This document shows positions 42,834 through 47,258 of a stretch of 64,000 bases of DNA, one piece after another. The first letter of the stretch is position 1. The number at the start of each line of letters is the position of its first letter. The DNA is from Candidatus Nitrosopelagicus brevis (lineage in GTDB: Archaea > Thermoproteota > Nitrososphaeria > Nitrososphaerales > Nitrosopumilaceae), in assembly GCF_000812185.1 (NCBI RefSeq), contig NZ_CP007026.1, forward strand, positions 681,222 to 745,221, written 5' to 3'. The notes under the pieces were generated by a model. It was given only the letters and a program-made list of their open reading frames with translations, did not search any database and was not told the DNA's origin. The position numbers were made by a program, and so were the translations under genes.

Positions 42834-45800
42834 TTATTCAAGGATATCGTATGGCTCAATTGGATCCCTTGTTGTTTCATTATTTTGCAGCCATTCGAGC
42901 GTCTTAACAAAAGAATCAGCCAACTCAATTGTAGTAAGTACTGGAATTCCTAGTTCAAGAGATTTTCTTCTAATCTGGTATTCATCATCTAACATTCCAA
43001 CATATTTTTCCAAAGAAAGTGTGCTTGGTATGTTAATAATGAAATCAATCTTTTTCTCATAAAGTAAATCAGAAATGTTTGGTTTACGTTCTGGTTCAGA
43101 GATTTTGTGTACAATTTCTATATCTCCAACTTTCTCTTCAAAGAATTCAGCAGTGTGTTCTGTTGCCAGTATTTTGAATCCCAGTTGTTTAAGTTTAGCA
43201 ATTGATGGCAATAGTTTTTCTTTATTCTGAGAACCTCCAGCAGTGACTAAAGCAGTTCCTTTATCAGGCAAATTGTAACCAACAGATGTTAGACCTTTAG
43301 ATAATGCATCATAGAAACTATTTCCAAAGCATGCAGCTTCACCAGTAGATTGCATTTCTACTCCTAATGCAATATCAGCACCGTCTAATTGCATGAATGA
43401 AAATTGAGGTACTTTGATTCCATAATTATGAATTTTTTGCCATTTATTTTCTGGAACTTTTGGTAAGGGTTTATCCAAAATTGCTTTAGATGCTAGAGAA
43501 ATAAGATTAGTTTTCACTAGTTTTGAGACAAACGGCATTGAACGTGATGCCCTAATGTTAAGCTCAATAACATAGACATGGTCATCATGAATAAGAAATT
43601 GTAAATTGAATGGACCTTTAACATTGAATGTAAGTGCAATCTTTTTTGTATAATCATTTATGGTTTCAATTGTCTTATTACTAAGACGCCATGGAGGAAT
43701 ACACATCATTGCGTCACCCGAATGAACTCCAGCAGAATCAATATGTTCAACTATTGCACCTATGACTACTTCTTTTCCATTACTAATTCCATCAACATCT
43801 ACTTCAAGTGAATCTAACATGAATTTTGAAATTACAACCGGATGATCTGGGGAAACATCAGTTGCCTCTTTCACATATGTTTTTAGCTCATCTTGAGACC
43901 AGACAACTTTCATTGCAGCGCCAGACAGAACATAAGAAGGTCTAACAATAACAGGGAAACCTACATCTTGTGCAAAGTTTCTTGCTTCATTTAGATTTGA
44001 AAATGCTTGCCATTTTGGTTGTTGTATGTGAAGCTTATCAAGTTCTGCGCTAAACTTTGAACGGTCTTCAGCCCTATCTACATCAATTGCACTTGTACCC
44101 ATAATATTGATTCCACGTTGTGCAAGACCAGGAGTGAGATTATTTGCGGTTTGTCCACCAACACAAGTGATTACACCTTTAGGGTTCTCAAAGTCAGATA
44201 TATCGAGTAAACGTTCTTGAGTTAATTCTTCAAAGTACAATCGAGTACAAATATCATAATCAGTGGACACGGTTTCAGGATTACAGTTTACAACTGACAC
44301 ATTTTTTTCACCATTTTCTTGAAGGCCCCACACCATGTTTACGGTTCCCCAGTCAAATTCAACACTACTTCCTATTCGGTATGGACCTGCGCCGACTACA
44401 ACTATTCCTTTCTCATCTGGAGATACTTGAATATCATTGGAATTTCCACCATAAGTAAGATAAAGATAATTTGTGACAGCAGGCCATTCAGCAGCTAAAG
44501 TATCAATTTGTTTTACAGCAGGAATTATTCCAAAGTCTTTTCTAATTTTACGAACTTCATCAGGAGTTTTTTCTTTTACACGTGCAATCTGATTGTCAGA
44601 AAATCCCATCTTTTTTGCATTTCTCAAAACCGATTCATTTAATTCAGATTCTTTAAGGTTTGATTCAACATTTACAATATTTTTAATTTTTTCAATAAAC
44701 CAAGGATCAATTGCAGATAGTTCATAAATCCGGTTAACAGAAATGCCCATCTTTAGTCCGATTGCAACATTATACAAAATTTGATCATCATGATGTGAAA
44801 GCTTGTATTCAATTTCTTCTTCAGTGTATGTTTTACCATTAGAGCGATTTAATACAAGACCATCATTTCCGATATCAAGCATTCGTATTGCTTTTTGTAA
44901 AGATTCTTCAAAGGTTCTTCCAACTGCCATTACTTCACCAACAGATTTCATTGTTACACCTAGTTTACGGTTTACGAGTTCAAATTTGGAAAAGTCCCAT
45001 CGAGGATGTTTGCAAACAATATAATCAAGTGAAGGTTCAAAACATGCAGTTGTACTTTTTGTGATTCGATTTACAAGTTCAGATAAATTGTAACCTAATC
45101 CAATCTTTGCAGACATGTATGCTAATGGGTAACCAGTGGCTTTACTAGCAAGAGCTGAAGAGCGAGACAAACGAGGATTGATTTCAATTGCAACATATCT
45201 ATCAGAATCAGCATCCAATGCATACTGAATATTACATTCACCAACAATTCCAACATGTTTTGTAGCACGTAGCGCTGCGGTGCGTAACATATGATATTCA
45301 TGATTGTTAATGGTTTGAGAAGGAGCAACTACAATATTATCACCGGTGTGGACTTTCATAGAAAGAACATTTTCCATATTACAGACGATTACATTATTTC
45401 CATCATAATCTTGCATCACCTCATATTCAATTTGTTTCCAGTGTCCAATGTATTCTTCAACCAAAACCTGACCTACCATACTAGCCTTACAGCCACGTTC
45501 TACAATTTCATGGAGTTCGATTTCATTATGAGCAATTCCGCCGCCTCTTCCACCAAGGGTGTATGCCACCCGAATTATTACAGGATATGATAATTCTTCA
45601 GCGACCTTTTTTGCATCCTCAAAATTTGTAACAGTCTTACTTTTGAGTACAGGGACACCTGCTTCTTTCATTGAATCTTTGAAAAGCTGCCTATCTTCAG
45701 TGTTTTTTATTCCATCTACTTGAGTACCAAGAACTTTGACGTCGTATTTTTTGAGAATTCCCGCCTCCTCTAACTTTACACCACAATTTAGGGCAGTTTG

Positions 45801-46076
45801 TCCTCCATATGCCAACATGATGCCATCAGGCCTTTCTTTTTCAACAATTGATTCAACATAATTTGGAGTTACAGGCAAGAGGTAAACTTGGTCTGCAAAT
45901 CGTGTATCTGTTTGGATGGTGGCAATGTTGGGATTAATTAGAACACTTTTGATTCCATCCTCATGAATGGCCTTGAGACACTGACTTCCAGAATAATCAA
46001 ATTCTCCCGCTTCACCAATTTTTATTGCACCACTTCCAAGTACTAGGATTTTCTTTAATGATTCATTTTTTGGCAT
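42834..46076 (-). CDS. carB: carbamoyl-phosphate synthase, large subunit
   Basis: 1080 residues with two ATP-grasp halves: KILVLGSGAIKIGEAGEFDY and, in the second half, VVGAGPYRIGSSVEFDWG mark the paired starts. RVAYTLGGRGGGIAH and RPSYVLSGAAMKVV are the ATP-binding loops. C-terminal allosteric MGS domain present. Produces carbamoyl phosphate for pyrimidines and arginine, in partnership with CarA three bases upstream. Confidence 0.97.
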   Translation of the reverse strand: MPKNESLKKILVLGSGAIKIGEAGEFDYSGSQCLKAIHEDGIKSVLINPNIATIQTDTRFADQVYLLPVTPNYVESIVEKERPDGIMLAYGGQTALNCGVKLEEAGILKKYDVKVLGTQVDGIKNTEDRQLFKDSMKEAGVPVLKSKTVTNFEDAKKVAEELSYPVIIRVAYTLGGRGGGIAHNEIELHEIVERGCKASMVGQVLVEEYIGHWKQIEYEVMQDYDGNNVIVCNMENVLSMKVHTGDNIVVAPSQTINNHEYHMLRTAALRATKHVGIVGECNIQYALDADSDRYVAIEINPRLSRSSALASKATGYPLAYMSAKIGLGYNLSELVNRITKSTTACFEPSLDYIVCKHPRWDFSKFELVNRKLGVTMKSVGEVMAVGRTFEESLQKAIRMLDIGNDGLVLNRSNGKTYTEEEIEYKLSHHDDQILYNVAIGLKMGISVNRIYELSAIDPWFIEKIKNIVNVESNLKESELNESVLRNAKKMGFSDNQIARVKEKTPDEVRKIRKDFGIIPAVKQIDTLAAEWPAVTNYLYLTYGGNSNDIQVSPDEKGIVVVGAGPYRIGSSVEFDWGTVNMVWGLQENGEKNVSVVNCNPETVSTDYDICTRLYFEELTQERLLDISDFENPKGVITCVGGQTANNLTPGLAQRGINIMGTSAIDVDRAEDRSKFSAELDKLHIQQPKWQAFSNLNEARNFAQDVGFPVIVRPSYVLSGAAMKVVWSQDELKTYVKEATDVSPDHPVVISKFMLDSLEVDVDGISNGKEVVIGAIVEHIDSAGVHSGDAMMCIPPWRLSNKTIETINDYTKKIALTFNVKGPFNLQFLIHDDHVYVIELNIRASRSMPFVSKLVKTNLISLASKAILDKPLPKVPENKWQKIHNYGIKVPQFSFMQLDGADIALGVEMQSTGEAACFGNSFYDALSKGLTSVGYNLPDKGTALVTAGGSQNKEKLLPSIAKLKQLGFKILATEHTAEFFEEKVGDIEIVHKISEPERKPNISDLLYEKKIDFIINIPSTLSLEKYVGMLDDEYQIRRKSLELGIPVLTTIELADSFVKTLEWLQNNETTRDPIEPYDILE

Positions 46077-46079
46077 ATT

Positions 46080-47144
46080 TTATTTCTCCATTAATTTTTT
46101 TAACTCGTCAAAAACATATTTGCAGTCAAAAGGACCAGGTGCAGCTTCAGGGTGAAACTGTACAGCAATACAATTTTTTGTTTTATGTTTTATGCCTTCA
46201 ACAGTATCATCATCAGCATTTGCAAACCATAATTTAAAATCGGATTTTTCTAGAGATTCGGGTTTGATACCATATCCATGATTCTGACTTGTAACATAAA
46301 CTTGATTTGTTTCTAAATTAACACAAGGTTTGTTTTGTCCACGATGACCATACTTCAATTTGTAAGTCTCCGTATTTCCTGCAATACCAATAATTTGTGC
46401 ACCTAAGCAAATACCTAGTGTAGGAATATTATTTTCAATTAGTTTTTTTGCAGTATCAACGGTATCAGGACAGTTTTGTGGATCGCCTGGACCACTACTC
46501 AAAACAACTCCTTTAGGTTTGTATGACATTATTTTATCAAACGGAGTATTCCATGGAACTACAATTGCTTTGTAACCTAATTCTCGTATATTTCTAACAA
46601 TTGCATTTTTTGCCCCGGTATCAATAACAACCACAGAATTATTTTCATCACCATAGATTTTTTCTTCTTTGGTAGACACAATATCCATGAATTTTTCAGA
46701 ATTGTAAGTAGTAATATTTGCAAGTTCATTTTTGACTTTTTCAACATCAATCTCTTCATCAGAGACAACAAGGGCTGCCATCATAACTCCACTAGTAGTT
46801 AATTTCTTGGTAATTGCACGAGTGTCAATTCCAGAAATTCCTGGAACTTTTTCATTATACATCCATTCATCCAAGGTCATTTTCAAATTCCAATGACTTG
46901 CAGTTTGAGACAATTCATGAACTACTAGTCCTCTGATCTGCATCGTATCAGATTCAAAGAATTTTGATATTCCATCTTCATCTACTGCATCTAAATCGGG
47001 AATGCCATAATTTCCGACTAAAGGATACGTTAAGGTAAGAATCTGACCATTGTAAGATGGATCAGTTAAGGCCTCAGTATAGCCCACCATGCCTGTATTA
47101 AAGACAATTTCACCAAAAACAGTAGTAGAATAACCAAAACCCAT
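46080..47144 (-). CDS. carA: carbamoyl-phosphate synthase, small subunit
   Basis: 354 residues from the first ATG, but family alignment shows this ATG is inside the gene. The glutaminase domain has GICLGAQIIG (catalytic Cys) and VQFHPEAAPGP (His-Glu). The N-terminal domain normally begins about 17-20 residues earlier with a strand like LLVLEDGT; the codons before the ATG read KFGKLILSDGTVLDG, clearly homologous. No ATG, GTG or TTG exists between these codons and an in-frame TAG at 47229-47231, so the true start is non-canonical (for example ATA 47219 or CTG 47177). Confidence 0.93.
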   Translation of the reverse strand: MGFGYSTTVFGEIVFNTGMVGYTEALTDPSYNGQILTLTYPLVGNYGIPDLDAVDEDGISKFFESDTMQIRGLVVHELSQTASHWNLKMTLDEWMYNEKVPGISGIDTRAITKKLTTSGVMMAALVVSDEEIDVEKVKNELANITTYNSEKFMDIVSTKEEKIYGDENNSVVVIDTGAKNAIVRNIRELGYKAIVVPWNTPFDKIMSYKPKGVVLSSGPGDPQNCPDTVDTAKKLIENNIPTLGICLGAQIIGIAGNTETYKLKYGHRGQNKPCVNLETNQVYVTSQNHGYGIKPESLEKSDFKLWFANADDDTVEGIKHKTKNCIAVQFHPEAAPGPFDCKYVFDELKKLMEK

Positions 47145-47219
47145 TCCATCAAGAACGGTTCCATCAGAAAGGATCAGCTTCCCAAACTTGTTTGCGTGTT
47201 TGGATTTCTTTGTAGTTAT
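47145..47219 (-). other. carA: carA 5' extension, coding but without standard start codon
   Basis: Twenty-five in-frame codons upstream of the annotated-type ATG. They encode TTKKSKHANKFGKLIL, then SDGTVLDG. A TATA-like TTTTAAAT on the minus strand centred near 47255 puts the transcript start about 47229, so most of this stretch is transcribed. Confidence 0.7.
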
Positions 47220-47249
47220 TGTGACCCTCTACAAGTCTCTTTGAATCGG

Positions 47250-47258
47250 GATTTAAAA
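47250..47258 (-). promoter_or_regulatory. TATA-like box of carAB
   Basis: Minus-strand cttttaaat; predicted transcription start is about 47229, 10 bases or so before the possible ATA start (47219). Confidence 0.45.

Follow-up and report, generated by a model that had tools for sequence, protein, structure and literature searches.

A probable AUA/AUU start codon of carA conserved across Nitrosopumilaceae and Nitrososphaeraceae

The bacterial genes infC and pcnB are initiated at AUU. Bacterial AUU, AUC and AUA starts are classed as non-canonical, their third base not being G, and are discriminated against by IF3 (PMC4611024); the archaeal factor aIF1 favours discrimination against non-canonical starts (cited in PMC6237735). 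Start codons change toward AUG far more often than away from it (PMC5622118). A weak start is found at carA of E. coli, which begins at UUG (PMC6245113) within the sequence CTGGAGGGTGTTTTGATTAAG, the TTG following GGAGGGTG.

Here we describe the carA locus of Candidatus Nitrosopelagicus brevis, contained in the 64,000-nucleotide stretch of its genome that was analysed (the window; Table 1). Comparison of related sequences indicates that carA of this organism, and of the Nitrosopumilaceae and Nitrososphaeraceae in general, is very probably translated from AUA or AUU with the assistance of a Shine-Dalgarno interaction. The proposed start resembles those of infC and pcnB in its third base, which is not G, in the Shine-Dalgarno block upstream of it and in its long evolutionary persistence; it differs in serving an archaeal ribosome, with aIF1 in the place of IF3, in belonging to a biosynthetic enzyme instead of an initiation factor, in its predicted leader of ~9 nt, and in a third base that alternates between A and U. 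Autoregulation of the infC type was rejected, since the gene is carA, and the gene for aIF1, which is present in the genome, has an ordinary ATG. With E. coli carA, an ortholog, the locus shares a weak start (the E. coli gene has a GGAGGG Shine-Dalgarno sequence and ATT as its second codon), but UUG is a canonical codon with G in third position, whereas the archaeal codon is AUA or AUU.

Starts of the AUU type are already known; what appears to be new, judged from sequence, is an AUH start conserved across two whole archaeal families. A literature search that covered few subscription papers found no description of an archaeal gene whose AUH start is conserved throughout a class, and none of carA in ammonia-oxidising archaea. 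An AUA/AUU start is normally very rare, and one kept across two families would therefore provide a natural test case for archaeal start choice, with carA as a natural, conserved substrate for start selection (aIF1 versus near-cognate codons) in central metabolism. Gene finders limited to ATG, GTG and TTG are liable to misplace the N-terminus of carA in these archaea, which are abundant in the sea and in soils.

Table 1. Coordinates of features at the carA start, with one comparison locus in a relative
Feature	Position	Strand	Basis or remark
carB, large subunit	42834..46076	(-)	ordinary ATG, 3 nt past carA stop (ORF list)
carA, glutamine-dependent carbamoyl-phosphate synthase small subunit	46080..47219	(-)	379 aa counted from AUA
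N-terminal coding stretch lost if ATG 47144 is annotated; holds first beta strand KLILSDGTVLDG	47145..47216	(-)	diversity and profile starts
ATA, proposed carA start codon	47217..47219	(-)	ATA/ATT in 128/128 distinct family sequences
GAGGGT, Shine-Dalgarno-like block	47224..47229	(-)	6 nt between GAGG and start codon
Predicted transcription start	47228 (about +/-2 nt)	(-)	26 nt downstream of TATA centre
In-frame TAG, upstream bound of carA open frame	47229..47231	(-)	sequence and translation
TATA box TTTAAA, carA promoter	47252..47257	(-)	CTTAAAT in most relatives
Lrp/AsnC-like gene of a relative	G148 sample, L333-L337 (joined stretch B333), near 85445	minus	ortholog comparison

The carA product scores 438 bits against TIGR01368 (cut-off 307), matches both PF00988 and PF00117, and its translation carries the Cys and His-x-Glu motifs of class-I amidotransferases (GICLGAQ, FHPEAAPGP). 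The gene adjoins carB, as expected of CarA, and is single copy in the 1.23-Mb genome; a pseudogene is ruled out by the single copy, the intact motifs and the profile scores. Upstream of the ATG at 47144 the frame is open back to the TAG, after which it reads AGG GTC ACA ATA ACT ACA AAG AAA TCC AAA CAC GCA AAC AAG TTT GGG AAG CTG ATC CTT TCT GAT GGA ACC GTT CTT GAT GGA before the ATG. An earlier note on this DNA had observed that no ATG, GTG or TTG occurs in this stretch, and none is found in its 28 codons, whose encoded sequence ends ...KFGKLILSDGTVLDG. At the codon usage of this genome such an absence has a probability of ~0.27 for a single sequence, and start-free leads of at least 28 codons precede ~2% of long ORFs, so that a missing start in one carA sequence is weak evidence and unremarkable. 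The absence rises above chance because close relatives conserve it together with the frame, the AGGGT block and an ATA or ATT at the same codon. This alignment with related Nitrosopumilaceae, which the earlier note had proposed as a check, bears out its suggestion of a start at the ATA, and the recurrence in independent genomes excludes sequencing error as the cause.

PF00988 and TIGR01368 begin at residues 14-15 of the AUA-started product, or residues 13-15 when the E. coli CarA alignment is included, such that the first beta strand would be lost if translation began at ATG 47144. This bears on the reading in which translation begins downstream, at ATG 47144 or CTG 47177, with the preceding stretch as untranslated leader. 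The ATG is the first standard start and the likely choice of gene finders, but the stretch evolves as protein-coding sequence and encodes the strand at which both profiles begin, and many Nitrosopumilus relatives have Gln, Glu or Lys in place of this Met and offer no standard start there; we regard a downstream start as the most improbable of the alternatives. Among the options raised in the earlier note, the ATA thus stood and two fell: CTG 47177 lies inside the first beta strand at a codon that varies (CTG, CTA, CTC, CTT, TTA and others), and an untranslated stretch is ruled out by the third-position substitution pattern.

Sequences of carA were collected within the genus and at each wider rank up to the phylum, with family names assigned from record titles. 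The codon at 47219-47217 is ATA or ATT in all 128 distinct sequences from the two families and ATG in none: among 93 from Nitrosopumilaceae 46 have ATA and 47 ATT, and all 35 from Nitrososphaeraceae have ATT. One further sequence (L083), left outside this set by the anchor pattern, has ATC. Stop codons bound the interval in which a start could lie. A TAG occupies the position of 47229-47231 in 14 of the 93 Nitrosopumilaceae sequences, part of this family having TAG or TGA directly ahead of AGG GTN ACA ATH, and in most others an in-frame TAA sits within the TATA box (CTTAAAT). TGA GGG TCA AAA ATT occurs in Nitrososphaeraceae, and in several members of this family the stop is directly or one codon upstream (TAA ATT ATT, TAA AGT ATT, TAA AAT ATT), crowding the codon so closely that AUH would be the start by elimination. 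No canonical start could give the conserved N-terminus, and within the interval left open to a start ATH alone occurs in every sequence.

A start just upstream, most plausibly a GUN at codon -2 (GUC 47225-47223) near the 5' end, would make the AUA an ordinary Ile codon. Codon -2 is indeed GTC, GTT or GTA in 82 of 93 Nitrosopumilaceae, with a varying third base, but it is GCC in L045, and it falls out of frame in L059-L061 and genus g33. The spacing from AGGGT to ATT shifts by one base between species (L059-L061; Nitrososphaera), so that upstream codons leave the frame while ATT stays in it. In Nitrososphaeraceae the same position holds a stop or unrelated codons, leaving ATH alone common to all, and the codon itself lacks the variation expected of Ile there; we consider a GUN start very unlikely.

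The boundary of coding-type variation coincides with the proposed AUA/AUU start. In Nitrosopumilaceae, nucleotide diversity at the three codon positions is 0.13, 0.13 and 0.38 over codons +1 to +12, and 0.54, 0.54 and 0.53 over codons -10 to -4, coding periodicity being absent upstream of ATH; in Nitrososphaeraceae a sharp boundary occurs at AAA-ATT-CCN-ACN. The position is therefore fixed in orthologues by both the 128/128 count and the onset of periodicity. 'Never ATG' is by itself no proof of a start, because an internal Ile codon would exclude G from the third base too. Compared with control Ile columns, the codon nevertheless behaves unlike an ordinary Ile codon: in Nitrososphaeraceae it is ATT in 35/35 sequences, whereas six other invariant Ile columns of that alignment are mixtures of ATT, ATA and ATC (entropy 1.2-1.6 bits), and along the gene tree the proposed start changed its third base 11 times, always between A and T and never to G, where control Ile columns show 16-41 third-base changes that include C.

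Not every species is obliged to use AUH, since some relatives do offer a standard start in frame within a few codons of it, either upstream (Nitrososphaeraceae genus g44, Nitrosopumilaceae genus g33, f2) or downstream (f2, f3, f15). In genus g44 (L178, L179, L182, L188, L190, L191) an in-frame ATG directly precedes AGG GTC AAA ATT; this ATG approximates the expected transcript start, and a switch to a leaderless ATG start is possible there.

The promoter places the proposed codon a short distance inside the transcript. A TATA box had been suggested near 47255, and TTTAAA is found there. Its centre is 35 nt ahead of the start codon in 75 of the 92 Nitrosopumilaceae with a box, whereas for the other genes of the genome TATA-like boxes are most frequent at 26 nt upstream of ATG. 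Calibrated on the leaderless genes of the same genome, this difference predicts a carA leader of ~9 nt, in keeping with the ~10 nt proposed earlier. The gene thus shares with leaderless thaumarchaeal mRNAs its promoter type and a TATA box near the gene, but unlike them, with their start at the 5' end and TATA ~26 nt upstream, it has a 35-nt distance and an AUA predicted to lie away from the 5' end.

A conserved (G)AGGGT block lies 6-9 nt upstream of the proposed start. In 82 of 92 Nitrosopumilaceae this leader carries an (A/G)GGG whose first base is at -9, and the GAGG of the window lies at a spacing (6 nt) appropriate to a Shine-Dalgarno element of NUH starts. The 16S rRNA ends GGAUCACCUCCUUA, with anti-Shine-Dalgarno CACCUCCU, and the duplex of the latter with the carA leader is estimated at -6.3 kcal/mol, stronger than the -2.6 that ATG starts average across the genome; none of 248 comparison starts is preceded by GAGGGT. 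Some Nitrososphaeraceae (L180, L183) lack the block. Elsewhere in the order (L097-L110, L202 and other loci) GAGGGT is kept ~20 nt after the TATA box even where a standard start follows further on, so its role may exceed that of a Shine-Dalgarno sequence, for example as part of the transcript start. The GGGU where the transcript is predicted to begin might also undergo reiterative addition of G and so act as a UTP sensor. A regulon motif was rejected: TTTAAAT-N16-26-GAGGGT occurs once in its own genome, at carA, and with one mismatch allowed AGGGTNACAATH is no commoner than its reversed control, its sole other exact match lying inside an unrelated stretch.

A standard start could be supplied, and its absence from the DNA explained, by splicing of the leader, by RNA editing or by a frameshift out of an upstream frame. 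Against these, the TATA box ends ~22 nt before AGGGT, a leader of ~9 nt is too short for an upstream frame, and there is no ATG in any frame between promoter and AUA; nor do the first 131 nt, taken as a candidate RNA element, fold better than shuffled sequences (z +0.58). We judge such a source of the start highly improbable.

Initiation at the AUA/AUU codon would then proceed as follows. The short leader, with GAGGGU near the 5' end, would position the 30S subunit; initiator tRNA would pair with AUH despite the third-base mismatch; and the product would begin with Met although the codon specifies Ile, reading MTTKKSKHANKFGKLILSDGT. Use of initiator Met-tRNA is inferred by analogy with the known bacterial AUU, AUA and AUC starts. 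If the codon is the start, its history suggests that AUG is disfavoured there, and movement of the third base between A and T but never to G leads us to infer selection for weak initiation, a purpose for which we see the case as evenly balanced. Such a weak start might set or regulate carbamoyl-phosphate synthesis at the branch point of arginine and pyrimidine synthesis with aIF1 as the discriminating factor, although regulation through aIF1 is speculation.

Alternatively, the AUH could be a tolerated relic, any NUH working behind a good Shine-Dalgarno sequence with no selection for weakness. Other NUH-start genes in the same genomes speak for this, as do the 11 A-T changes, which mark the third base as partly free. 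On the other side, AUG is one transition from AUA and normally favoured, yet it is seen in 0/128 sequences of two families, and weak starts (GTG or TTG) are found at carA of E. coli and of many further Thermoproteota; outside the two families, only GTG or TTG is offered in 32 of 75 carA sequences. We favour selection for weak initiation, since the E. coli TTG start indicates that weak carA initiation recurs in distant lineages, and hold a relic to be the somewhat less probable reading, if a serious one.

Start-free conserved N-termini are rare in the genome and not unique to carA. The gene-set control covered 464 kb of this genome (38% of it) together with 800 kb from a relative. Among long ORFs of the 464 kb, long start-free leads that look coding were found at carA, a uppS-type gene and an unnamed protein; among 254 ortholog pairs with the relative (which include some residual shadow ORFs), an N-terminus conserved ahead of every standard start was convincing for carA, for the unnamed protein and for an Lrp/AsnC-like gene. 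The uppS-type cis-prenyltransferase (PF01255; L250:1025-1837, G000:C1:301025-301837, minus strand) has a 38-codon start-free lead, and the homologous position before AAC GGA, behind GAGGTGG, holds ATT in the Nitrosopelagicus group, ATC in L277, GTT in L278 and ATG in L279. The unnamed protein (IGIATEYGKPYFKLSKIFK...; L262:7016-7684, G000:C1:1087016-1087684, minus strand) matches no Pfam or NCBIfam family and lacks a standard start before its conserved N-terminus in 14/14 same-genus sequences found. The Lrp/AsnC-like regulator has ATG in the genome of the window and, in the relative, ACG at the homologous start with 72 codons lacking a standard start.

Tentatively, Nitrososphaeria may tolerate, and in a few genes conserve, starts with any third base (AUH, GUH, perhaps UUY), their strength being a regulatory variable acting through aIF1, a generalisation that we think unlikely as it stands. 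If it were true, carA, the uppS-type gene, the unnamed protein and the GUC, GUU, AUU and UUC of family f9 carA would be members of the set. The carA of other families in the order either has one of ATG, GTG and TTG or, as in f9 and f11, likewise lacks all three. In f9 (L109, L110, L230-L236) the conserved TCG of carA is preceded, behind GAGGGTTCTC, by GTC, GTT, ATT, TTC or AGT, as if GUG, AUG and UUG had lost their third-base G.
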